NCBI GenBank assembly: GCA_022822005.1
Contig: JAJECO010000014.1
Coordinates: 1-52,107 of the forward strand
Direction of reading: 5' to 3'
From: Candidatus Poribacteria bacterium
GTDB taxonomy: Bacteria > Poribacteria > WGA-4E > PCPOR2b
DNA length: 52,107 nt
The notes under the pieces are model-generated. The model made no database searches. It saw only the letters and a list, made by a program, of their open reading frames with translations, and had not been told where the DNA came from. The position numbers were made by a program, and so were the translations under genes. Below, piece by piece: positions 6,551 to 21,257 of this stretch (position 1 is the first letter of the stretch; each line of letters starts with the position of its first letter).

Positions 6551-6600
6551 CGGGGCGTAGCGCAGTCTGGTTAGGGCGTTCCGATGAATCGGAAAGGTCG
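6551..6600 (+). pseudogene. Decayed tRNA copy (5' half of tRNA-Pro)
   Basis: The first 23 bases match the intact tRNA-Pro at 6645 at all but one position, covering the acceptor 5' strand and D arm. After that the copy degrades. The anticodon arm TTCCG/CGGAA closes only a 6-nt loop, the T arm lacks TTCRA, and no CGCCCCG strand exists to pair with the acceptor. It is therefore a remnant of a tandem duplication, not a working tRNA. Confidence 0.65.
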
Positions 6601-6644: not shown

Positions 6645-6719
<75 letters not shown>

Positions 6720-7586: not shown

Positions 7587-7634
7587 AGTGGGGAAAAGGT
7601 GTTTTGTGGTGAGGTTGAAACGGGAGGAATCAAC

Positions 7635-7967
7635 ATGAAATCTTATCCTCAACCGGAATCGAAGAACGGCTTACCAGAACCCGTCCTCCAAAAGATACGC
7701 GCTGTCTTCTCGCGTTATCCACAGGTAGAAAAAGCGGTTTTGTACGGTTCACGCGCCAAAGGTGCCTACAAAAACGGTTCTGATATTGACCTAACCCTGC
7801 GCGGGGGAGATGATTTGACGCTGAATGTACTTTGCAAAATTGCCAATGATCTAGACGACCTGTTTCTGCCCTACATGATTGATTTATCTATCTTTCACGA
7901 CATCAGTGACTCTGACGTGATTGAGCGTATTGAGCGGGTTGGGGTGACGGTATATGAGCAGAGTTGA
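7635..7967 (+). CDS. MNT-type nucleotidyltransferase domain protein
   Basis: The 110-residue product is a minimal nucleotidyltransferase. VLYGSRAKGAYKNGSDIDLTL near residues 36-56 has the GS-x-DxD signature, and a further acidic residue lies in MIDLSIF. Proteins of this type act as antitoxins to HEPN toxins by AMPylating them. No HEPN partner is present: the next gene, 9 bp away, is a type III restriction subunit. The ATG at 7635 is chosen over an upstream start at 7599 because GGGAGGAATCAAC sits directly before it. It may be an orphan antitoxin or a regulatory part of the restriction locus; this is unresolved. Confidence 0.8.
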   Translation: MKSYPQPESKNGLPEPVLQKIRAVFSRYPQVEKAVLYGSRAKGAYKNGSDIDLTLRGGDDLTLNVLCKIANDLDDLFLPYMIDLSIFHDISDSDVIERIERVGVTVYEQS

Positions 7968-7976
7968 CGGAAATAT

Positions 7977-10547
7977 ATGATGGCTGAAAAGTTTTTGTGC
8001 GAAACACTCGATTCTGTATCCGAAATGGGATTTCTGAACAAGGAGATTCCCGATTATCTCAAAGACAACCTGAATCCTGCGTTTGAACTCCGTCCGTATC
8101 AGAAAGAAGCCTTCGCTCGCTTCTTTCACTGTCTTGACAACCCCTTTCCGGGCAAGGAAAATCCCTTGCATTTTCTGTTTAATATGGCGACCGGCAGCGG
8201 CAAAACACTTATCATGGCGGGCTTAATTCTCTACCTCTATGAAAAAGGTTATCGAAATTTCCTCTTCTTCGTCAACTCCACCAATATCATCGAAAAGACA
8301 AAAGACAATTTTCTCAATCCCCTGTCTTCCAAATACCTGTTCAATGAACCCCTCCACTTCGGATCGGTTCGCGTCCCCGTGACGCCGGTTTCCAATTTTG
8401 AAGGGGTCAACGAAAACGATATCAATATCTGTTTTACTACCATCCAACAGCTACATATTGATCTGAACACACAGAAAGAGAATGGCTTAACATACGAGGA
8501 TTTCAAAGACAAAAAGATCGTGCTCTTAGCTGACGAGGCACACCACATCAATACCAGTACGAAAGCTGGACAGGAGCTGATAGTAAGCTGGGAAAATACG
8601 GTGGAGCGTATCTTTAATCAGAACAGGGACAATCTGCTACTTGAATTTACCGCCACCCTCGATTATACCCATAGCAGCCTTGTCGATAAATATCGTAACA
8701 AGGTATTATATAGGTATGATCTGCGACAGTTCCGCAATGATGGCTATTCCAAGGATGTCTTTATCGTTCAAGCGGATTTTGAGGAGAAAGGTCGGATCAT
8801 ACAGGCACTTATTCTCAACCAGTATAAACAGGAGGTGGCGGCAAAACATCAGATTAATCTCAAGCCGGTAATTCTGTTCAAGGCACAGCGCACGATTGAA
8901 CAGTCACAAAAGAACAAAGCGGATTTTCACAAACTCATTGATAACCTCACGGCTCCGGACATCGCTAACCTCCGTCGATCAGATATTCCGCTGGTGCGAC
9001 GGGCATTTCAATTTTTTGACGATAATGACATTAGCGATGAGCAGTTGGTCGGACGCCTAAAACGGGAATTTCAGGAAGACTACTGCCTCTCGGTCAACGA
9101 TGAACGAGAGAAAGAGAACTATCAGATTCTGGTCAACACGCTTGAGGACAGCGACAACCGTATCCGCGCCATCTTTGCCGTGCAGAAACTCAACGAAGGT
9201 TGGGATGTCCTAAATCTGTTTGATATTGTTCGATGTTACTGCACCCGCGACGCAAAGGCAGGGAAACCGGGCAAAACAACCGTTGCAGAAGCGCAGTTAA
9301 TCGGACGCGGGGCGCGGTATTTCCCCTTTGTTACTGACGATAATCCTGATCAATACCGACGGAAATTCGATAAAAACCTGACGGCGGACCTACGGGTGTT
9401 GGAAGAGCTGCACTATCACAGTGTCAACGATTCCCGCTATATCTCTGAAATCCGCACCGCCCTGATCGATGAAGGGATGCTTGACGAACGGGCAGTGGAA
9501 AAACCGCTTAAATTGAAAAGGAAATTTAAGAAAACCGATTTTTACAAACATGGGATCATCTACATCAATGAACGGGTCGAGAACAAGAATGAATCTGTCC
9601 GCTCATTTGCCGACATGGGTGTCTCGTCAAGGAATTACCACCATTCACTCGCCACCGGCAGGGGGGTTGTTGAGGCGGCTCTGGATGACAACGCTGATGT
9701 TCAACAGATTATAGAACCGAGTCAAAGAAATATCTCAGTGAGAGATATACCGTTCCATATCGTTAGGGCTGCAGTTACCCAAAACCCCTTTTTTGCTTTC
9801 AAATCCTTAAAGACCTATTTCCCACACATTAAATCTATCCGTGAGTTCATTGAAGCGGAGGAGTATCTCGGCGGACTGTCAATCACCCTTCAGGGCGGTG
9901 AAAGATATCCCTTATCGAATGAAACGCACCTTGCTGCGATGACGGGATTGCTTGACCAAATTGCATCTGAATTGCGTCAAAATAGGACGGAATACAGGGG
10001 CACAGAAACTTTCGAGCCAAGTAATGTCAATTCAATCTTCACCGACAAAACCCTCAAATTGGTTGAAGGCAGCGAAAGAGCGGATGGCGACGAGCAATTA
10101 GTCTCGGATGAGGATAGGGAATGGTATGTATTCAATGCCAACTACGGCACCCGCGAAGAAAAGGATTTTGTTCGAACCCTCGATGCCCAGATAGGTAAGC
10201 TAAAAGAAAAGTACGACGGGATATATCTGATCCGTAACGAGAGACATTTCAAAATTTACAACTTTGATGATGGACAGGCGTTTGAACCCGATTTTGTGCT
10301 GTTTCTGCGTGAGAAAAACGGAAATACCCTCGTCCGTCAGATATTTATTGAACCCAAGGGAAAGTATCTGCAAGCACACGAAAAATGGAAAGCGGACTTC
10401 TTAGAACAGATTAAGGAAAAATTCGCAGGGGAAGTGCTGGTGCTTAAAACCCGAAGCGGAACGCAGAAGCACAGGCCAATTGGCGTGCCCTTCTATGACA
10501 ATCAAGATGAAATACAGTTCATGGAAAGCCTTGAATCTGTATTATGA
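7977..10547 (+). CDS. res: Type III restriction enzyme Res subunit
   Basis: This 856-residue protein is the ATP-dependent translocase/nuclease of a type III restriction system. The N-terminal superfamily 2 helicase has Walker A ATGSGKT near residues 71-77 and the DEAH box ADEAHH near residue 185. The second RecA domain has LNEGWDVLNLF and AQLIGRGARYFPF near residues 405-450. A C-terminal PD-(D/E)xK nuclease is visible as FEPDFVLF near 767 and FIEPKGKYL near 790. It cuts unmodified DNA only in complex with Mod. Mod normally precedes Res; here Res comes first, with a protease gene between. Length is within family range and no frameshift is seen. Confidence 0.9.
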   Translation: MMAEKFLCETLDSVSEMGFLNKEIPDYLKDNLNPAFELRPYQKEAFARFFHCLDNPFPGKENPLHFLFNMATGSGKTLIMAGLILYLYEKGYRNFLFFVNSTNIIEKTKDNFLNPLSSKYLFNEPLHFGSVRVPVTPVSNFEGVNENDINICFTTIQQLHIDLNTQKENGLTYEDFKDKKIVLLADEAHHINTSTKAGQELIVSWENTVERIFNQNRDNLLLEFTATLDYTHSSLVDKYRNKVLYRYDLRQFRNDGYSKDVFIVQADFEEKGRIIQALILNQYKQEVAAKHQINLKPVILFKAQRTIEQSQKNKADFHKLIDNLTAPDIANLRRSDIPLVRRAFQFFDDNDISDEQLVGRLKREFQEDYCLSVNDEREKENYQILVNTLEDSDNRIRAIFAVQKLNEGWDVLNLFDIVRCYCTRDAKAGKPGKTTVAEAQLIGRGARYFPFVTDDNPDQYRRKFDKNLTADLRVLEELHYHSVNDSRYISEIRTALIDEGMLDERAVEKPLKLKRKFKKTDFYKHGIIYINERVENKNESVRSFADMGVSSRNYHHSLATGRGVVEAALDDNADVQQIIEPSQRNISVRDIPFHIVRAAVTQNPFFAFKSLKTYFPHIKSIREFIEAEEYLGGLSITLQGGERYPLSNETHLAAMTGLLDQIASELRQNRTEYRGTETFEPSNVNSIFTDKTLKLVEGSERADGDEQLVSDEDREWYVFNANYGTREEKDFVRTLDAQIGKLKEKYDGIYLIRNERHFKIYNFDDGQAFEPDFVLFLREKNGNTLVRQIFIEPKGKYLQAHEKWKADFLEQIKEKFAGEVLVLKTRSGTQKHRPIGVPFYDNQDEIQFMESLESVL

Positions 10548-10624
10548 AAAATTGCGGTTTTTGGATATCCGATTGTTTTTCAGCAAGCTCTCATTGAGAT
10601 TAAACTGAGTAATTAAGAGCACAA

Positions 10625-11443
10625 ATGGCAAACCAATATTTTGAACATTATATAGCTTATATAACTGCCAAAATTGACATTGAATCACCCGATGCAGCTA
10701 ACTCCATTGGAACAGGATTTTTTTATCTGGCCCAGGTTCCCTTGAACGATGGAACAAATCGTACAAAAATGTTGCTGATATCGAACAAACATGTATTTGG
10801 CGACCAAAAAGGGAGATTGAAGATTAACCTGAATCGTAGGAAGGAAGATGACACACCAGATTTTGGGAATATAATAACATTCCATCTGCCTATACTTGAA
10901 ACCCCGTATTTCGCTCATCCTAACCCAGAGGTTGATTTGGCGTGTGTTGATGTTTCCCGTATTACACATACAGATGCTTTTTATAAGTACCTAAACGACG
11001 ATCTCTTAACGCCAATAGACTACCAAAAAGTAGCTTCGGGAAGTGACGTTATATTTGTAGGATACCCGGAAAATCGTTACGATGTTGTGAACAACTTGCC
11101 GCTAATCAGAAGAGGATCAATAGCATCAATGCCTAATGTTGACTTTAACGGAAGGGGTCAAATTGTTATTGACGCGCAGGTATTTCCTGGGTCAAGTGGT
11201 AGCCCTGTTTTTGTTGCTTGGGACAACAAATATTCACTACTTGGTGTTGTTTCTCAAACAATGATTCGCCATTCACAACTTCAAACCTTACCAACAAATA
11301 CACCACCGGTTGGCATCCAACAAATACTAGGTCTCGGTATTGTTGTAAAGCAAAAGCATGTGCGAGAGCTTATAGATTACACTATTAACGAATGTATACA
11401 GATAGTGAGTTTATACGAACATCTCCAAGTTCCTAACAAGTAA
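10625..11443 (+). CDS. Trypsin-like serine protease within the restriction locus
   Basis: The 272-residue product has a chymotrypsin-fold catalytic triad. The histidine is in LLISNKHVFGD (H56), the aspartate in PEVDLACVDV (D104) and the serine in FPGSSGSPVF (S191). There is no signal peptide and no PDZ domain, so it should be cytosolic. It sits 77 bp after res and 78 bp before mod on the same strand. Trypsin-like domains without export signals occur in defence loci, often as proteases triggered by a sensor partner, so a regulatory or abortive-infection role is possible. The base composition is more AT-rich than its neighbours, suggesting a separate arrival. Its substrate cannot be read from sequence. 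Confidence 0.82.
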   Translation: MANQYFEHYIAYITAKIDIESPDAANSIGTGFFYLAQVPLNDGTNRTKMLLISNKHVFGDQKGRLKINLNRRKEDDTPDFGNIITFHLPILETPYFAHPNPEVDLACVDVSRITHTDAFYKYLNDDLLTPIDYQKVASGSDVIFVGYPENRYDVVNNLPLIRRGSIASMPNVDFNGRGQIVIDAQVFPGSSGSPVFVAWDNKYSLLGVVSQTMIRHSQLQTLPTNTPPVGIQQILGLGIVVKQKHVRELIDYTINECIQIVSLYEHLQVPNK

Positions 11444-11521
11444 ATTTTCTGATGCGATTGACTAATGGGTCTGTGATTTCGCTCGGGTCCAAAGAGCAAA
11501 AAGATTTATAAGGACCAAACC

Positions 11522-13504
11522 ATGCCAAAGTCTTTTCACGAAAAACTAATCAATCTCCTCAAAACCGCCCCCCGTTTCGTTGATGAAGAAGGCGAGTTGG
11601 TCAAAGCGGCGGTGATAGATCAAGCGTGGAAAATTGACCATGATCTCGTGAGGCTGCTGCTGCGTGAACCTGATATAAAGGCGAAATTCTTTGACGAGGT
11701 CGAAAGGCACTGGGTCTTCAACACCAACACCTTCATCGACTACATCTCTGATAAAAACTTCCTTGCCAACTCCTATACCCGCTTCCGCAACAAAATCGGC
11801 TTGAACATTGAGGATAAATTTTTGCCTGAACGGGGTGAGGTGTCTCTGGTCTGGCCCTACAAAGATTGCGTGCTGGAGGGCGGGCAGACAAAGGAGGAGG
11901 AGAAGCGCAAGGAGATATTTTTCAATGAAATCTTAGCGCAAGATGAGATTGACCGCCTCTTTGATCCAAAGGTGCTGACCCGTTGGAAACGCCATACGAT
12001 TGATGGTGGGCAAGAATTAACGGAGATTAAACGCGATGAAAACGGTATAATACAGGAAAACCTACTCATCAAGGGGAACAATCTACTGGCACTGCATACG
12101 CTCAAACAGCAATTTCGCGGAAAAGTCAAACTGATTTACATTGACCCGCCGTATAACACAGGAAGCGATAGTTTCGGCTATAACGATAACTTTAATCATT
12201 CCAGTTGGCTAACGTTTATGAAGAATCGGCTGGAAGTGGCGCGGGAATTGTTGAGGGATGACGGGGTAATCTTCATTCACATTGATGACCAAGAGATGCA
12301 CTATTTGAAATTGGTGGTAGATGGTATATTCGGCAGAGATAACTTTATCGCTACCGTTCCGAGAAAGACGCGGAGCGGAAAAAGTGATGTGCCTTATAAA
12401 CTATCGCAGGATTTTGACTGGATGCTGATGTACACAAAAAATGCCTTAAAGACAGATGCACTTTTCGGACGCAGCATTGCAAGGAAATATCACAAGACCC
12501 CCGATTTTCCTAACGATGAATGGAGATTAACTGACCTGACTACTCAACGCACAATTTATGAACGCCCCAACTCAAATTTCATACTGGTGAATCCGAGAAA
12601 TGGACAAGAATTTCCTGTGAATCCTAATCGTTGCTGGGGTGTTACTAAAGATTCAGTAGATGAATATCTGAGGAAAGGAAAAATTGTTTTCCCCGGCGAT
12701 TACGATTTTCATGACCTGAAACGTCCCGCCATGCGAGTTTTTAAGTCCGAAGATATGGGAAAAAAGGCTTATGTATCATCGGATTTTCTGAATCAAGCGA
12801 TGGATGAATTGCTGAAAAGCATGGTCAACAGGAAAGGCACGGATGAAATTGTAGAATTGTTTGGAGAGAAGGTGTTTGCATACCCTAAGAATGAAGGGCT
12901 TATTGAGCGCATCATTGAATACACAACAGAAGAAGGGGATACTGTTTTAGATTTTCACGTCGGGAGTGGTACAACCGCCGCAGTTGCCCATAAGATGAAC
13001 CGACAATGGATAGCTGTTGAACAGATGGATTACGCAGAAACCATCACGATGGAGAGGCTCAAGAAAGTTGTCGGCAAGAAGGTTGAGGCAGAGGGAAAGC
13101 TAATCGAAGAAATTGATTACGACACCGGCGGCATCTCCGAATCCGTCAACTGGCAGGGTGGCGGCGACTTCATCTATTGTGAACTGATGCCATACAACCA
13201 AGCCTTTATGGACAAAATCCAAGCTGCTCAATCCTCCGAAACACTTGTAGCACTCTGGCGGGGCATCGCCGAAAACTCATTCCTAAACTGGTACGCCAAC
13301 GCAGAAATCCCAGAGGATGCGGTAAAGGATTTCATCAAAATCGGTAAAGGCGAAAATGGGTTGGAGAAGCAGAAAAAACTACTGATGGGACTACTGGATA
13401 AGAACCAGTTGTATGTGAATCTTTCGGAGATAGAGGACGCGGATTTTGGCGTCAGTGAGGGAGATAAGGCGTTGAATCGGGCGTTTTATGATGATGCTTC
13501 CTAA
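11522..13504 (+). CDS. mod: Type III DNA N6-adenine methyltransferase Mod
   Basis: This 660-residue protein is the modification and recognition subunit of a type III system, methylating adenine on one strand of an asymmetric site. Motif IV IDPPYNTGSD is near residues 207-216 and motif I VLDFHVGSGTT is near 473-484, the beta-class order. The central variable stretch, about 280-440, is the likely target recognition domain. A histidine replaces the usual proline or phenylalanine spacing residue in motif I (DFHVGSG, commonly DFFAGSG), which should be tolerated. An AAGGACCAAACC site precedes the ATG. No repeat tract for phase variation is visible. Confidence 0.92.
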   Translation: MPKSFHEKLINLLKTAPRFVDEEGELVKAAVIDQAWKIDHDLVRLLLREPDIKAKFFDEVERHWVFNTNTFIDYISDKNFLANSYTRFRNKIGLNIEDKFLPERGEVSLVWPYKDCVLEGGQTKEEEKRKEIFFNEILAQDEIDRLFDPKVLTRWKRHTIDGGQELTEIKRDENGIIQENLLIKGNNLLALHTLKQQFRGKVKLIYIDPPYNTGSDSFGYNDNFNHSSWLTFMKNRLEVARELLRDDGVIFIHIDDQEMHYLKLVVDGIFGRDNFIATVPRKTRSGKSDVPYKLSQDFDWMLMYTKNALKTDALFGRSIARKYHKTPDFPNDEWRLTDLTTQRTIYERPNSNFILVNPRNGQEFPVNPNRCWGVTKDSVDEYLRKGKIVFPGDYDFHDLKRPAMRVFKSEDMGKKAYVSSDFLNQAMDELLKSMVNRKGTDEIVELFGEKVFAYPKNEGLIERIIEYTTEEGDTVLDFHVGSGTTAAVAHKMNRQWIAVEQMDYAETITMERLKKVVGKKVEAEGKLIEEIDYDTGGISESVNWQGGGDFIYCELMPYNQAFMDKIQAAQSSETLVALWRGIAENSFLNWYANAEIPEDAVKDFIKIGKGENGLEKQKKLLMGLLDKNQLYVNLSEIEDADFGVSEGDKALNRAFYDDAS

Positions 13505-14031: not shown

Positions 14032-15543
14032 ATGGCAAAAGCTATTATTGCACGAAGAAAAGGGGATGAATACCAAGCCAGATTCTTCTGGTTGAAGCTG
14101 CTTGAACTCAGAACTAGTGATTATGTCGAATCCGTTACCTTGGAAAGCGATCAAGTCTCTTTTGTTGATGATGTTGTTGTTTCTTACTGTAAACCAATAA
14201 TGGAAAAACAGACAAGGAAGCGAGTTGTTTGTGACCTGTTTCAGTGTAAATATCACATGACACAAGACAGCGTATTTAACCATGAAAATCTAATTGATCC
14301 GGATTTTATTAATTGCAAGAGCTCGATGCTACAACGCTTGTATGATGCGTATGTAAGTTTGTCAAAAGAATTAAGTCCAGATACATTTCGATTGTACATT
14401 TTCTCTAACTGGCATTGGGATCATCAAGACGTAGTTGCTGAGTATTTGCACGAGGAGATGCTTCGTCCAACTTTTTATGAAAAGGGACCGCGGTCGAAAA
14501 GGGGTATGATACGTTCAAAATGGGCACAGCATCTTTCTGTATCACCGGAAGAACTTCGTTCATTCTTAGAGACTATTCGGTTTAGTCTCGGAAAAAATCT
14601 AATTGATTTAACAAGGGAAATAGAGCTGCGTCTTAAATTGGCCGGTCTGCAACCGATTGACTTAACTGTGACTAACATCGTTTATGATGACCTTGCTTGG
14701 AAGCTTTTTGGGCAGGGGCATAACTCGTTTGATAGAAGTTCTTTGGATCAAATGATACAGGAAGAACAACTAATTGCTCCACCATCTACAGACCATAGTG
14801 AAATCTCTATTCAAAGTTTTGCACAATTTGCACGGAGGCCCCACGATCTCCAAGCAACGCATCTCGATTTATGCGGACTTTTTGATGGTCGTTTTCCAAA
14901 AGATAATTCGTATTGGAAAAAGAAGATTCCTGAACAGATTTCGGCATTCATGTTGAATGAAGACTTAAGCAATTTGTCCCAACCCATTCACATTTTCTTT
15001 GATTGTCATTTGAGTATTGCTTTCTTTGCTGGGCATTTGATTAGTCCTAAACATCGCATTCAAATTATACCAACACAGAAAGAAGGAAGTAACTACGCGC
15101 TTTGGGAGCCGAATAAATCCGATATCAATGATGACCTTTGGCATCTCGAAATCGTTGGAGAAATAGATAGGGAGTTGATCTTGGGGATTTCTGTGACGCA
15201 TCAAATACAGACAGATCTGCAGCCCTACCTAGAGGCGGAAAACCTAAACGATTTGCCTCAAGTTTTAGTTTCTCCAACGGGAGGTGCTGGTCCCCGAGCC
15301 ATATGTGATGGGGACCATGCTTGGCAGCTTGGATATCAGCTTGCTAAACGGCTTAGCGAGATACTCCCACATGCGTGTCATGCGATACACCTCTTTTTTG
15401 CGGGGCCCGTTGCATTAGGATATATTCTGGGACACACACTTCGTCATATCACCTCACAGATTCAACTTTATGAACACGATTTTGAAGGGCAGCGTAGCGG
15501 ACAGAGATATTATCCAAGTCTACGCATTCCTTATCAATCTTAA
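14032..15543 (+). CDS. cap4: CBASS effector Cap4 (endonuclease-SAVED)
   Basis: The 503-residue protein is a cyclic-oligonucleotide-activated DNA endonuclease. The N-terminal DUF4297-like nuclease shows FVDDVVVSY near residues 45-52 and DLFQCKYH near 68-75, giving the D...QxK active site. The C-terminal half is a SAVED sensor domain. Its marks are PIHIFFDCHLSIAFFAGHLI near 323, VLVSPTGGAG near 425 and HLFFAGPVALGYILGHTL near 453. Binding of the second messenger made by the adjacent CD-NTase should trigger DNA degradation and host death or arrest. It is the first gene of the operon and is followed by the CD-NTase after 19 bp. An AAGGGAAATG site precedes the ATG. SAVED effectors also occur in type III CRISPR, but the context here is clearly CBASS. 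Confidence 0.92.
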   Translation: MAKAIIARRKGDEYQARFFWLKLLELRTSDYVESVTLESDQVSFVDDVVVSYCKPIMEKQTRKRVVCDLFQCKYHMTQDSVFNHENLIDPDFINCKSSMLQRLYDAYVSLSKELSPDTFRLYIFSNWHWDHQDVVAEYLHEEMLRPTFYEKGPRSKRGMIRSKWAQHLSVSPEELRSFLETIRFSLGKNLIDLTREIELRLKLAGLQPIDLTVTNIVYDDLAWKLFGQGHNSFDRSSLDQMIQEEQLIAPPSTDHSEISIQSFAQFARRPHDLQATHLDLCGLFDGRFPKDNSYWKKKIPEQISAFMLNEDLSNLSQPIHIFFDCHLSIAFFAGHLISPKHRIQIIPTQKEGSNYALWEPNKSDINDDLWHLEIVGEIDRELILGISVTHQIQTDLQPYLEAENLNDLPQVLVSPTGGAGPRAICDGDHAWQLGYQLAKRLSEILPHACHAIHLFFAGPVALGYILGHTLRHITSQIQLYEHDFEGQRSGQRYYPSLRIPYQS

Positions 15544-15562
15544 CCATTAGGAGGGTTAAATC

Positions 15563-16696
15563 ATGGAATTACCAACCTATTTTACAAGATTTCTCCAGGC
15601 GATTCGTCCAACGAAGGATCAAAAGGAAGATTGCAAAACAGGGCATCAAACACTACGTGATCGGCTCACGGCAGATGAACAGTTGAAACCGATTATTGTA
15701 AGCACAGTTCTACAAGGAAGTTACCGTCGAGCGACCGCCCCTCGTCCAAAAGGGGAAGCTAAGTTGGATGTAGATACTATCGCAGTCACTCGAATTAATC
15801 AATCCGATTACCCAAATCCAGATGATGCGATGGATCTTTTCGTTCCTTTTTTGGATAAACACTACAAAGACAAATATCAAAGGCAGGGACGTTCATTTGG
15901 GATCGAGCTTTCGTATGTGAATCTTGACCTAGTCATTACTTCAGCACCGTCCGAAGTTGAAGAGGAGATTTACGAAAGCAAGGCAGTTAGAACAGACTTT
16001 ACGCCTGAGGATATTGACGATTGGCTATTGACGAAATCTTGGATTCCGCCGGGTGAAAGGACAAACCAAGCTGCTTTCTTTGAGAGCTTACGTAGTGCAG
16101 AATGGCAAACCGAACCGTTATGGATTCCAAACCGCGATGCTGGTAAGTGGGAACGAACGCATCCATTAGAGCAAATCAAATGGACCTGGGCAAAGAATGC
16201 CATTTGCAATAAGCACTATGTCAATGTTGTTAAGGCGATTAAATGGTGGCAGAGAGTTCATCATGAAGATGATCGACCCAAAGGATATCCGCTTGAACAT
16301 CTTATGGGTGTCTGTTGTCCTGATGCCATAACGTCTGTTGCGGAAGGAGTTACGCTGACATTAGAGGCTATCGTCGCGAATTACAGTGTGTATGCTCTAC
16401 TTAAGCAAGTTCCCTGTCTCCCCGACCATGGTGTTCCTGAACACAATGTTTTGGGGCGAGTGTCTGGCGAAAAGTTTGCTGAATTTTATGAACATGCCAA
16501 GAAAGCTGCTGAGATAGCACGTGATGCTCTTGATGCTGATGACAAAGAGAAGTCTATTGAGAAGTGGTGTGAATTGTTTGGCAGTAAGTTTCCGGATTCT
16601 GATGATAATGGGAATAAGGGAAATAGTTCTAGGGGTCCCTTTGAGCAGTCCCCTAGGAACCAGACTGGTGATTTAACACCTCGCAGATATGGATAG
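15563..16696 (+). CDS. CBASS cyclic oligonucleotide synthase (CD-NTase)
   Basis: This 377-residue protein is a cGAS/DncV-like nucleotidyltransferase that makes a cyclic di- or trinucleotide on phage infection. The active site is QGSYRRATAP (G52-S53), KLDVDTIAV (D69 and D71) and VNLDLVIT (D122). The helical core continues to about residue 320, and the tail from about 345 is polar and probably disordered. The last residues are TPRRYG. A C-terminal glycine is what Cap2 needs to conjugate the enzyme to a target, so the ending fits the neighbouring gene. An AGGAGGG site lies before the ATG. The stop overlaps the cap2 start by 8 bp. The clade and product cannot be fixed from sequence alone. Confidence 0.92.
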   Translation: MELPTYFTRFLQAIRPTKDQKEDCKTGHQTLRDRLTADEQLKPIIVSTVLQGSYRRATAPRPKGEAKLDVDTIAVTRINQSDYPNPDDAMDLFVPFLDKHYKDKYQRQGRSFGIELSYVNLDLVITSAPSEVEEEIYESKAVRTDFTPEDIDDWLLTKSWIPPGERTNQAAFFESLRSAEWQTEPLWIPNRDAGKWERTHPLEQIKWTWAKNAICNKHYVNVVKAIKWWQRVHHEDDRPKGYPLEHLMGVCCPDAITSVAEGVTLTLEAIVANYSVYALLKQVPCLPDHGVPEHNVLGRVSGEKFAEFYEHAKKAAEIARDALDADDKEKSIEKWCELFGSKFPDSDDNGNKGNSSRGPFEQSPRNQTGDLTPRRYG

Positions 16697-18539
16697 GATG
16701 CCAAGCCAGAACACAATCCCTGATATTGTGATAGAAGCCTATAGCTCTCTGCGACAACACCGGATTGTTGAAATTAGCAAACCGATTGATTGGAGTCAGG
16801 GCGAAGATGCTCCGGGTTGGGTATTTGAGTGTGCGGCCAAAGTGCCCTATCCCAATCAGGAGGAGGTGCCCTGTGACGTTCCTTTACGCGTCTTGATTCC
16901 TGAAACATTTCCAATGCAACCAGTTGAAATCTTTTCTCTATCTGAACAAGTGAGTGGTTTTCCTCACCAAGAGGCTGGGTCGAAAAAATTATGTTTACCA
17001 GAAGAACATCTAGTTCCTCGGGACGCCCAACGGCTTGTTTGCTACGTTAAATGGGCAATTGAATGGCTCGAAGATGCAGCAAATGGGACGCTGCTTAAAC
17101 CGGATGAGCCGTATGAATTGCCTGCCTTTAGTTATGGACTTTCCCCAATAAAGTGTCCTGTAATCTTTGAGGAGTCATTAGACTCTTACAAGAAATGGGA
17201 GTCTCATATAGGTCAGTGGGGGCACGTTGAGTTCTTTTGTGGAGTGGAAATTCCGGCGATATTCGCTGTCAGATTTTGCCATAAAGATGGTTCACTGGTT
17301 AGAGAATCAGAATTCTCTCCGAGTATTCTGAAAAAAGATGATAAAATTGACGGGAGGTGGATCCTTATACCCGACATCCGTTATATCAGACACCGCCCAC
17401 CTCAAACCTATCAGGAGATGACTGAACTGTGTTCAAAGAATGATTTGGACTTTTATGCAGTTCTCAAGGAAGCTTGGAATCATAAACATTCCCATCAGTT
17501 TGGAATTCTGCTCATCGGTTTTCCAATTCCCAAAATTGTTGGAGAGCCGCCCACCGAAATCCATTGGCAACCTCTGCTTTTTAAGAATCTCAAACAGCAT
17601 CTTAAGGAATTCAATGCCCCGGGCGCCAGACGAAGATCAAAAGGTCAATCTCAGAAACCTAGAAAAATATGGGAGAGATTGATAAACAACGGCGATTTTT
17701 CAGCCTCTCAACAGCTGCCGTGGGGAACAGTTGAAAATGTTGCCTACGAGAGATTATATGCAAGAGGCGCCCACCCTCCAAAGGTTCAATCAACATCTAT
17801 TGCTTTTTTCGGTTGCGGCGCATTAGGGAGTTCTGTTGCAGAATTACTTGCACGGGGTGGTGTAAACCAACTGAACCTATTTGATCCGGATTTAACAAAT
17901 TTTGGTAATCTCTGTCGTCATACCCTTGACGGTTCATCTGTCAGTGTGAATAAAGCAGGGGCGTTAGCAGCTAGACTTTCGCGAGCGAATCCCCTTTCGA
18001 CGATAAAAGGGTATCCTGAAAGAATACCACTAAACTTACGATCGGATGAGGCAATTCATCAAGTGTTTGCGAAGACAGATGTATTTGTCGATTGCACCAC
18101 GAGTGAGGCCGCATTTGATTGGTTGAATCAATATGCTGTAGAAAACAACAAACGTTTGATTTCCTTGTTCTTCAGTTTCCATGCGGAATTGCTAACAATT
18201 TGTATATCAGGTGATTCCACGCCATGTGGAGACATATTTGCGGATCTAAAGTATGCTGTTCAAGAGAAATATACATCGCTTGACCCCAAGGAGTACTTTC
18301 GTGTTCCTTCAAAGGAAGTACAAATTATAGAAGGTGCCGGATGTTGGCATCCGACTTTTCCTGCTCGAAATGCTCATGTCCAAATTCTAGCGGCATACGC
18401 TGTAGATATTCTCAGCCATTCAATAGACTCTAAGCAAAAGATAGGGCTTGCAGCAATTATTAAGAGGCGGTCGATGACGCAAAACGGTGTCCAACCGGGA
18501 TCACTTGTTGAGGTGGTATGGACAAAAGAATATCCATGA
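16689..18539 (+). CDS. cap2: CBASS ancillary protein Cap2 (E2-E1 fusion)
   Basis: The 616-residue product is a ubiquitin-transfer-like E2-E1 fusion that primes the CD-NTase by attaching its C-terminus to cellular targets. The N-terminal E2-like domain carries the candidate catalytic cysteine in SKKLCLPEEH (C102), followed by CYVKWAIEWLEDA. The E1-type adenylation domain begins near residue 372 with IAFFGCGALGSSVAELLARG and NLFDPDLTNFGNLCRH, a ThiF-like nucleotide fold. Candidate E1 cysteines are in FVDCTTSEAAFDW near 468 and in GDSTPCGDIF near 514. It overlaps the CD-NTase by 8 bp and cap3 by about 20 bp, so the operon is tightly coupled. A second ATG at 16698 is a possible start. Confidence 0.9.
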   Translation: MDRMPSQNTIPDIVIEAYSSLRQHRIVEISKPIDWSQGEDAPGWVFECAAKVPYPNQEEVPCDVPLRVLIPETFPMQPVEIFSLSEQVSGFPHQEAGSKKLCLPEEHLVPRDAQRLVCYVKWAIEWLEDAANGTLLKPDEPYELPAFSYGLSPIKCPVIFEESLDSYKKWESHIGQWGHVEFFCGVEIPAIFAVRFCHKDGSLVRESEFSPSILKKDDKIDGRWILIPDIRYIRHRPPQTYQEMTELCSKNDLDFYAVLKEAWNHKHSHQFGILLIGFPIPKIVGEPPTEIHWQPLLFKNLKQHLKEFNAPGARRRSKGQSQKPRKIWERLINNGDFSASQQLPWGTVENVAYERLYARGAHPPKVQSTSIAFFGCGALGSSVAELLARGGVNQLNLFDPDLTNFGNLCRHTLDGSSVSVNKAGALAARLSRANPLSTIKGYPERIPLNLRSDEAIHQVFAKTDVFVDCTTSEAAFDWLNQYAVENNKRLISLFFSFHAELLTICISGDSTPCGDIFADLKYAVQEKYTSLDPKEYFRVPSKEVQIIEGAGCWHPTFPARNAHVQILAAYAVDILSHSIDSKQKIGLAAIIKRRSMTQNGVQPGSLVEVVWTKEYP

Positions 18540-19039
18540 ATAAATCTTTGCTAAGATGGCGGTCTGACTGTAAACGGTATACGGTGCTTATCTCAAAGTC
18601 CTGCCTTCTTAAGATGACAGACATGGCACAGGAACATTACCCCAATGAAGTAGGAACATCGTTAGTTGGATGTTATTCTGATGATGGCTTTGAGGCTTCT
18701 GTTCTTGAACTTGCACCCTTGAGTCCAGACTCGAAAGGTTCACGAACTTCGTTTTATAGAGGAATTGCAGGTTTGCGAAATTTCTTTACAAAACTGCGAA
18801 AGACTTTCTCTGGTAGACGGTACTATGTGGGTGAGTGGCATAGCCATCCAGACGGTAAACCTATTCCGAGCGGTACGGATAACCGTAATCAGTTGGAGAT
18901 TGCAAAAGATACCAAAACAGACTGTCCTGAATGTATTCTTATTATTATCGGAGGTACAGATTCTAACTTCGATAAAATAGGTGTTTTCGTGTATTCACGA
19001 AAGCACGGACGGGTTATGCTCTACAACACAGATAGATGA
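18518..19039 (+). CDS. cap3: CBASS ancillary protein Cap3 (JAB/JAMM isopeptidase)
   Basis: Cap3 is a zinc isopeptidase that removes the CD-NTase from its conjugates, opposing Cap2. The 173-residue product has the JAMM motif GEWHSHPDGKPIPSGTD with ligands H108, H110 and D121. The general base is probably E44 in YPNEVGTSLVG. Length is typical. The start at 18518 has GAGGTGG very close upstream; an ATG at 18536, which overlaps the cap2 stop as ATGA, is an alternative that would shorten it by six residues. It completes a type II CBASS set. No gene follows for about 340 bp. Confidence 0.9.
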   Translation: MDKRISMNKSLLRWRSDCKRYTVLISKSCLLKMTDMAQEHYPNEVGTSLVGCYSDDGFEASVLELAPLSPDSKGSRTSFYRGIAGLRNFFTKLRKTFSGRRYYVGEWHSHPDGKPIPSGTDNRNQLEIAKDTKTDCPECILIIIGGTDSNFDKIGVFVYSRKHGRVMLYNTDR

Positions 19040-19287: not shown

Positions 19288-19347
19288 CCTTGAAAAATTA
19301 ATCCGTTTGATTCATAATTAGGCAGATTTGAGGGCTGTTTGTAAACC
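19288..19347 (+). promoter_or_regulatory. XRE/ImmA gene promoter sharing the CBASS operator array
   Basis: TTGAAA (19290-19295) and CATAAT (19313-19318) have a 17-bp spacer. Half-site-like sequences CCTTGAAAAA at 19288, GATTCATAAT at 19309 and inverted TTTGTAAACC at 19338-19347 are spaced 21 and 29 bp apart. These are exactly the spacings at the CBASS promoter. The 60-bp alignment has no gaps. The natural reading is that one regulator, probably the protein encoded just downstream, binds both. Confidence 0.7.
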
Positions 19348-19381
19348 CAATTCTTCATTGAATCCATGTGAGGACAAAATA

Positions 19382-20914
19382 ATGTCAACTAAACATGACG
19401 AAACTGCCAAATTTATTGCGGCTCAGAAAGGCGTTTCTTATAATCAGGGACCAGGTCCCGATATCAGAACGCCTCGTCAAATCATTGAGGTGGAAACAGC
19501 CGACACCATTACAAATGCTGCTCAGCAGCTTCGAGGGTACAGAGGTCCTGTCTACGTAGTTGGGGTGGACGCCAAAGCTACTGAGGCGGCTTTGGAGCAC
19601 TACAAAGAGACAACAATTGGAGTGATGGATGCTTCCGGTAAAATCCTGAAGCCCTCGACACGCAAGAGGGCGTCTTCAATGGACACTAGCAAAGAAGAGT
19701 CTACAACTGAACAAAGAGATACTGCAATCATGGTGGGTGAACGGTTGAAACGATTTAGGCTTGCCCGTGGCGTGTCTCTTGATGATTTAGAGGCTGCCAT
19801 TGATGGATTAGTTAGCAAGCAAGCACTTTCAAAGTATGAACGCGGGAAGATGCAACCCAAGGTAACGACACTCAATCAAATCGCTGCCGCATTGGGAGTG
19901 AAATCCGCTCAATTATGGGGCGAATCAACTTGGCAGGTGGAGTGGGTTGCCTATCGAAAACGCACTCGCATGGGTAAGAAAGAACAAGAACAGCTACAAA
20001 GTCTTGTCGCTGAAGTGTTGGAAAAACGGGTCTCCCTACTGGAGCGGCTGGGTGAGCGGAACAGCGTCGAACTCCCGATTCGAGAGTTTCCTGTTTCTAA
20101 AATAGAAGACGCCGAGGGTGCCGCTCTTGCGCTTCGCCAACAGTGGGACCTTGGGGTTGCCCCGGTTACAAACCTTGTGGGTGTGCTTGAAGACCATTTC
20201 ATCCACATCATTGAGGTTGAGGCGATTGAAACCTTCGATGGCATTTCTGCTGTGGTGCGAGATAACGACAAAAATGTGCTATCGGCAGCAATTGCAACGC
20301 GCCGAGGCACACCGGGAGACCGGCATCGACTCAACATCGCACACGAGCTTGGACATCTAACCCTAAAATTAGAGGAAGGTGTTAATGCGGAGAAAGCCGC
20401 TTTTCGATTTGGTGCTGCTTTCCTCGCGCCAGCCGAGGAGTTGCGTCGGGAAGTCGATGAGAAGCGAAGCCGCATTCAATCAGAAGAGCTCCAGTACCTC
20501 AAGTGGCGTTATGGAATGAGCATCCAAGCAATTCTGTATCGACTGAAGGATTTACGGATTATTACCGATTCCTACTATAAACAGTGGTGCATGAAAATCA
20601 ACAAATTGGGTTGGAAAAAGCGTGAGCCGATTGAAATCTCCCCTGAAAAACCGAAACGGTTTCATCAGCAGGTATTTCGTGCACTCTCCGAAGGATTGAT
20701 AGAGGAAAGGGAAGCCGAACAACTCCTTAACGACACACTTGAGACCGCTTCAGCCCCGTCACTGATTGAACGGCGTGCTTTCTTTGAACTGCCAACGGAT
20801 TTGAGACGCAGCCTATTGAGGGAACAGGCGAAGCAGATGGCGGATTACTACCAAGATGATCCCGAATGGCGCGAACTTGAAGGGGGAGACCTTGTTGAAT
20901 ACGAATCCACCTAA
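19382..20914 (+). CDS. XRE helix-turn-helix/ImmA-type metallopeptidase regulator with nuclease-like N-terminus
   Basis: The 510-residue product has three parts. Residues 1-95 form a small alpha/beta domain with GPGPDIRTPRQIIEVET (D27, E36, E38), like a PD-(D/E)xK fold but lacking the usual lysine. Residues 117-180 are an XRE helix-turn-helix (VGERLKRFRLARGVSLDDLE... SKQALSKYERGK). Residues 240-360 are an ImmA/IrrE-type zinc peptidase with LNIAHELGHLTL (H321, E322, H325) and a downstream acidic ligand near E337. The ATG at 19382 has TGAGGA upstream; a longer frame from 19328 lacks one. It follows CBASS and overlaps a MazF-like gene. CapH (HTH) and CapP (ImmA-like peptidase) control some CBASS operons as separate proteins; here both are in one chain. 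A toxin-antitoxin role with the next gene is the main alternative. Confidence 0.85.
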   Translation: MSTKHDETAKFIAAQKGVSYNQGPGPDIRTPRQIIEVETADTITNAAQQLRGYRGPVYVVGVDAKATEAALEHYKETTIGVMDASGKILKPSTRKRASSMDTSKEESTTEQRDTAIMVGERLKRFRLARGVSLDDLEAAIDGLVSKQALSKYERGKMQPKVTTLNQIAAALGVKSAQLWGESTWQVEWVAYRKRTRMGKKEQEQLQSLVAEVLEKRVSLLERLGERNSVELPIREFPVSKIEDAEGAALALRQQWDLGVAPVTNLVGVLEDHFIHIIEVEAIETFDGISAVVRDNDKNVLSAAIATRRGTPGDRHRLNIAHELGHLTLKLEEGVNAEKAAFRFGAAFLAPAEELRREVDEKRSRIQSEELQYLKWRYGMSIQAILYRLKDLRIITDSYYKQWCMKINKLGWKKREPIEISPEKPKRFHQQVFRALSEGLIEEREAEQLLNDTLETASAPSLIERRAFFELPTDLRRSLLREQAKQMADYYQDDPEWRELEGGDLVEYEST

Positions 20915-21257
20915 TCCGCGTCGGGGAGAGGTTTGGGATCTAAACTTCGATCCGACGATTGGCGCAGAAATTCAGAAAATCCGTCCTGCTGTAGTTATTA
21001 GCTCCGATCGCGTAGGACATTTGCCAATTAAGTTGGTTTCCCCAATTACCGGTTGGCAAGACCGGTTTTCAAGAAACATCTGGCATGTTCGTATCAATCC
21101 CAACAGTGTCAATGGTCTGACAAAGATTTCAGCCGTTGACACGCTGCAAATTCGCGGGGTAGATGTGAGACGCTTTATTAGCAGACGAGGCAGACTCAAC
21201 GCAATACTCATGCAAGAGATTACCGCGGTAATCGCTGCAATTATCGAGTATGAATAA
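20892..21257 (+). CDS. MazF/PemK-family toxin
   Basis: This protein of about 121 residues has the MazF/PemK endoribonuclease fold. Marks are RRGEVWDLNFDPTIGAEIQK, KIRPAVVISSD, and KLVSPITGW near the middle. MazF toxins cleave mRNA at short motifs. No MazE-like antitoxin precedes it; the overlapping upstream gene is the XRE/ImmA protein, which may fill that role. The start is placed at TTG 20892 because AGGGGGAG lies five bases ahead; an ATG at 20856 lacks a binding site and would extend the overlap. Translation is probably coupled to the upstream gene. Confidence 0.82.
   Translation: MLNTNPPNPRRGEVWDLNFDPTIGAEIQKIRPAVVISSDRVGHLPIKLVSPITGWQDRFSRNIWHVRINPNSVNGLTKISAVDTLQIRGVDVRRFISRRGRLNAILMQEITAVIAAIIEYE

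Follow-up and report, generated by a model that had tools for sequence, protein, structure and literature searches.

A stand-alone trypsin-like protease of the PDC-S45 family between the type III restriction genes of a Poribacterium

A putative mobile effector protease lies within a type III restriction locus. In the window analysed here, a stretch of 52,107 nucleotides from a sponge-associated Candidatus Poribacteria bacterium (contig JAJECO010000014.1), the gene for a trypsin-like serine protease separates the res and mod genes of a type III restriction-modification (RM) system (Table 1). The reading that we favor, with a probability of roughly 0.55, is that the protease is an autonomous, mobile cytosolic effector, probably defence-related, which entered the res-mod junction a single time and now resides in a defence island. 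Counting for it are a catalytic triad kept in 68 to 70 of 70 aligned sequences, the lack of a conserved neighbour, carriage by phages and plasmids, and Poribacterial copies that sit beside varied nuclease and restriction genes. Counting against it, carriage by prophages also fits other moron functions, including action against host defence, and the close same-strand spacing without terminators could reflect one operon and would then permit functional coupling.

Table 1 Features of the type III restriction locus and its surroundings in the window
Feature	Position	Strand	Remarks
MntA-like nucleotidyltransferase, 5' of res	7599..7967	+	domain match
Res, type III restriction subunit, 856 aa, intact	7977..10547	+	ResIII helicase; C-terminal EPD...EPK nuclease-like motif
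res-protease spacer, 77 bp	10548..10624	+	without terminator-like site or flanking repeat
Trypsin-like serine protease, stand-alone	10625..11443	+	PDC-S45 / phrog_7688 family, triad H56-D104-S191
protease-mod spacer, 78 bp	11444..11521	+	AAGGA ribosome-binding-like sequence ahead of mod
Mod, type III methyltransferase, 660 aa, intact	11522..13504	+	MTase_III match
CBASS operon (SAVED-endonuclease effector, CD-NTase, E1-E2, JAB)	14032..19039	+	domain/profile matches

The gene encodes a predicted cytosolic protease with an intact triad

The open reading frame (ORF) begins with ATG and encodes a single-domain protein of 272 amino acids that matches the Pfam family Trypsin_2 (9.3e-9). Its catalytic residues H56, D104 and S191 are conserved in 69, 68 and 70, respectively, of the 70 sequences in an alignment made up of the query and 69 relatives from viral contigs. 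The AlphaFold2 model (pLDDT 88.4) has a chymotrypsin fold with a C-terminal helix, and its top PDB fold matches are DegQ, DegS and trypsin-like proteases (E ~1e-8 to 1e-7); with both the His-Asp-Ser triad and the fold, the protein belongs to the S1/chymotrypsin-fold proteases. It resembles HtrA, DegS and DegQ in this fold but differs from them in lacking both an export signal and a PDZ domain. No N-terminal hydrophobic stretch or signal peptide was found in the protein, where the best 19-residue Kyte-Doolittle mean was 1.14, at residue 180, and a Pfam scan returned no PDZ domain. An earlier note, made from the letters of the window, had described an intact protease at this position, without export signal or PDZ domain and with about 77 bp on each side, and ORF, Pfam, alignment, fold, hydropathy and spacer lengths all agree with that description.

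Relative to the copy in a sister species (genome G018), the gene has a dN/dS of 0.29, which indicates purifying selection. Because of this ratio and the large homologous family, the ORF is not a chance frame, and the product is a real and probably active cytosolic protease. The gene is GC-poor, with 39.2% GC and 32.6% GC3 against 45.4% and 52.2% for Res and 45.1% and 51.7% for Mod. The independent arrival that the earlier note had suggested from base composition is borne out by this difference (39.2 versus ~45%) and by a family that is at home in prophages and plasmids.

Operon structure and neighbouring genes

The flanking genes were readily assigned, Res matching REase_III at 1.9e-146 and Mod matching MTase_III at 2.2e-176. 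All three genes share the + strand, with gaps of 77 bp upstream and 78 bp downstream of the protease. Since neither spacer contains a terminator-like site, a single res-protease-mod operon is plausible, and it would allow functional coupling. A promoter scan returned no more sites than in shuffled sequence, and neither repeats nor a target-site duplication were found flanking the protease.

The wider neighbourhood has several other features. The CBASS operon looks complete, is common to G018, and is followed on its 3' side by XRE/ImmA genes (19328-20914) and a PemK-like gene (20856-21257). The MntA-like gene stands alone, and no HEPN partner was identified in its immediate vicinity; in G018 the recO and res ORFs are separated by 114 bp, and no ORF was called there. 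Just ahead of the recO-res island, 28 nt at positions 6551-6578 repeat the 5' end of tRNA-Pro with 93% identity; they lie 94 bp upstream of the tRNA itself (6645-6719) and are possibly a relic tRNA or an integration scar.

Linkage to type III restriction reflects a single ancestral event

In order to survey other type III systems, Res and Mod loci were collected from 85 Poribacterial genomes, and all ORFs of the fetched loci were compared with the family profile. Besides the window genome, only G018 had the order res-protease-mod, followed by the same CBASS operon. In the ~40 other Poribacterial type III loci, the protease was neither between nor beside res and mod. The earlier note had proposed looking for the same insertion in other type III loci and had counted its absence from all of them among the signs against its proposal. 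That is nearly what was found, the orthologous sister-species locus being the sole exception among the Poribacterial loci scanned.

Between the window and G018, dS is 0.57 for the protease, 0.63 for Res and 0.48 for Mod; as the value for the protease is close to that for Res, the gene arrived before the two species split and was then kept with the locus. Two congeners have no protease, with Res proteins 89% (G020) and 82% (G022) identical to that of the window. G022 also encodes a Mod orthologue of full length (86% identity), which means that this Res and this Mod occur together in a genome with no protease between them, and the Res identities to the window copy (89, 87 and 82%) show no split between carriers and non-carriers. 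From these comparisons, the linkage is a single old ancestral event in two sister species. A third type III RM component is thus not supported, as recurrent linkage to res or mod in independent loci was not seen, only the window and the orthologous G018 locus; a type III-specific protease was rejected, since only the sister-species locus matched among the 85 genomes.

Several observations concern the same locus in these relatives. The mod gene of G018 (L018:10618-12600) has a TGA at codon 36, which is either a sequencing error or a recent inactivation; its res and protease ORFs are open. The res-mod slot of G020 contains an 82-aa ORF, HicB-like by eye, adjoined by duplicated intergenic sequence (L064:8716-9072). 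In G022, five mod genes in tandem come directly after res (L065:6354-19499, corresponding to G022:C1:2840853-2854073); their ends are conserved and their middle parts vary, as if for switching type III specificity, and the last of the five is the orthologue of the window Mod.

The protease belongs to a family carried by prophages and plasmids

The protease matches PDC-S45, listed by PADLOC as a candidate defence family, over the full length of the profile (residues 1-254 of the protein, 5.2e-52), with weaker matches to LmuA of Lamassu (4.6e-9) and RT-Protease_XI (1.6e-7). Among PHROGs it matches phrog_7688 (4.1e-38), which is annotated as of unknown function. One scan of viral contigs yielded 71 relatives, and 21 records of a plasmid collection contain one. 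Members are single genes, the 69 viral-contig relatives being mostly 238-325 aa, and the fused sensor or constant partner is absent from the protease and from the family, as in stand-alone PDC-S45 genes. Across the 69 viral-contig loci there was no conserved partner gene, and Res or Mod was found near none of them. Neighbours of the viral and plasmid relatives included integrases, resolvases, portal, phage structural and lysis genes, with defence genes only occasionally immediate neighbours in prophages. The sole match in the phage collection was a part-length relative in phage SfII, located between lysis genes and an HNH gene.

The window protease is thus like PDC-S45 / phrog_7688 proteins in its full-length profile match, size, triad and stand-alone gene, but is only 24-33% identical to most phage and plasmid copies and differs from them in its location between res and mod. 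PDC-S45 has been reported in prophages (PMC12429752); we found no published phage-resistance test or reported function of the family in the literature. Judged by its gene neighbourhoods, the distribution of the family is the pattern of a prophage and plasmid cargo gene.

Protease relatives were present in 10 of the 85 Poribacterial genomes (E<=1e-8). In G051 the relative and a type ISP/IIG-like restriction-methylation gene are transcribed towards each other, and likewise in G034, where the copy is broken; these convergent pairs (L019:8500-12897 and L023:9632-12710) come from two Poribacterial genera. The relative in G080 adjoins PDC-S54 and a REase-fold fragment, and that in G075 adjoins a REase-fold gene. 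Copies were also broken in G070 and G044, but these are metagenome-assembled sequences in which assembly errors may underlie the broken copies as well as the mod stop in G018. Only two neighbour sharings occurred among the Poribacterial loci, each between a pair of loci. From this gene content, the family accompanies restriction and nuclease genes in Poribacteria without a fixed partner.

The mod-res junction serves as a cargo slot in Poribacteria

About 30 of the 41-42 readable Poribacterial type III loci have at least one ORF of at least 100 aa between the two genes, a count in which a few loci depend on simple ORF calling and from which L154 (split res) and L109 (weak mod) should be discounted. 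Most loci with cargo are arranged mod-cargo-res. Among the genes found there are DUF4411 with XRE/ImmA, TIR with DUF1883, Uma2, DUF3800, RRXRR and transposase-like genes, and none of the cargo genes of other type III loci matched the protease profile. A recurrent gene of 463-525 aa occupies the slot in ~12 loci (for example L108:1545-2960, L148:5212-6603 and L146:9727-11250). It has no Pfam or PADLOC match, but the motif R-x4-H-x-G near its C-terminus, invariant in 8 members, suggests a HEPN-type RNase, an assignment by motif without Pfam support. Another, of 950-1215 aa, recurs in ~11 loci (for example L128:5690-9254 and L119:5618-9265), frequently preceded by a gene of ~212 aa; one member has a weak partial match to Dsr1, outside the Dsr1 N-terminus. 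In several plasmid type III systems the mod-res gap is only ~9-44 bp by match coordinates. On the evidence of gene content, the junction of res and mod is a cargo slot in Poribacteria.

Effector-like genes inside RM operons have been described; PrrC is one, in EcoprrI, and HEPN proteins of at least 16 clades are others (PMC3710099; PMC12707154). PrrC-EcoprrI resembles the window locus in that an extra enzyme gene is embedded among RM subunit genes, but it combines a type Ic RM system with a HEPN RNase (an anticodon nuclease), whereas the window has a type III system with a protease and no recurrent linkage.

Possible roles of the protease

We suggest that this mobile PDC-S45 / phrog_7688 protease, which was inserted a single time, in the common ancestor of two Poribacterial species, would act alone and not as a type III subunit. 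Before infection it may be silent or only slightly active; a signal from the infection, either a phage protein or oligomerisation that such a signal brings about, would then let it cleave a single essential protein of the host or the phage. The working analogy is Lit, the lone protease of E. coli prophage e14, which cuts EF-Tu on meeting the T4 Gol peptide. Both would be lone, prophage-type cytosolic proteases serving as exclusion effectors, but Lit is a metalloprotease and we do not claim homology. It is by such analogy that we infer a defence role, a trigger and a substrate.

Alternatively, the gene could be a non-defence moron, functional in lysogeny or plasmid upkeep and a neutral passenger here. 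Heterogeneous prophage neighbourhoods and the broken copies in G034, G070 and G044 are consistent with this, but most genes next to the Poribacterial copies have restriction or nuclease functions and the window copy is under constraint, and we consider it rather unlikely. Coupling of the kind seen in PrrC, in which the type III complex silences the protease until a phage block of Res or Mod frees it as a back-up abortive effector, draws on its position inside an RM locus like that of prrC in EcoprrI (PMC3710099; PMC12707154), on the frequency of HEPN toxins in RM operons (PMC3710099) and on the maintenance of the arrangement in two species. There was only one insertion, however; G022 has orthologous Res and Mod without the protease, family relatives occur without any RM system, and in G018 the protease is open and constrained despite the stop in mod. 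Such coupling is improbable, and its broader form, in which an RM-guarded protease is one of several interchangeable slot effectors (HEPN-like, TIR, DUF4411-ImmA, Uma2) and cuts an essential protein once freed by phage anti-restriction, is quite doubtful.

It is similarly doubtful that the protease cuts Res or Mod to tune or alleviate restriction, or began as an anti-defence protease of a prophage or plasmid. The family resides mainly on such elements, and proteolytic control of restriction is known from ClpXP acting on HsdR (PMC4231737), but the protease has long coexisted with intact res in both species, and the Res proteins of carriers are not distinct from those of non-carriers. Trypsin-like proteases are established as defence effectors where a sensor fusion and an MBL pro-nuclease partner go with them (PMC12799240). 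Hachiman (HamA), AVAST (Avs1b), Lamassu (LmuA) and DRT share with the window locus an intracellular, defence-associated protease of the Trypsin_2 type (PMC12799240), and the weaker profile similarity to LmuA and RT-Protease_XI could point to a protease that activates a gated MBL nuclease in the same way. The window protease has neither sensor fusion nor nuclease, and such a pair is highly improbable. No MBL nuclease was found among the scanned neighbouring genes in the window, which largely refutes this pairing for the locus; nor is a HamA, Avs, LmuA or RT fusion compatible with a single-domain protein of this length.

The earlier note's idea of an effector in a defence locus stands insofar as an active-type cytosolic protease of a candidate defence family lies in a defence island. 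A function for the restriction system is unsupported, given the single ancestral linkage, the congeners with Res (and in one case Mod) but no protease, and the relatives without Res or Mod; control of Res or Mod by the protease, or coupling as in PrrC, is possible but unsupported.

Widespread in prophages and plasmids and with a nearly invariant triad, PDC-S45 is therefore a good candidate for a single-gene defence test. The Poribacterial mod-res slot repeatedly contains toxin- or effector-like genes, which, if coupled to restriction, would extend the PrrC-type combination of RM plus a second line to type III systems.
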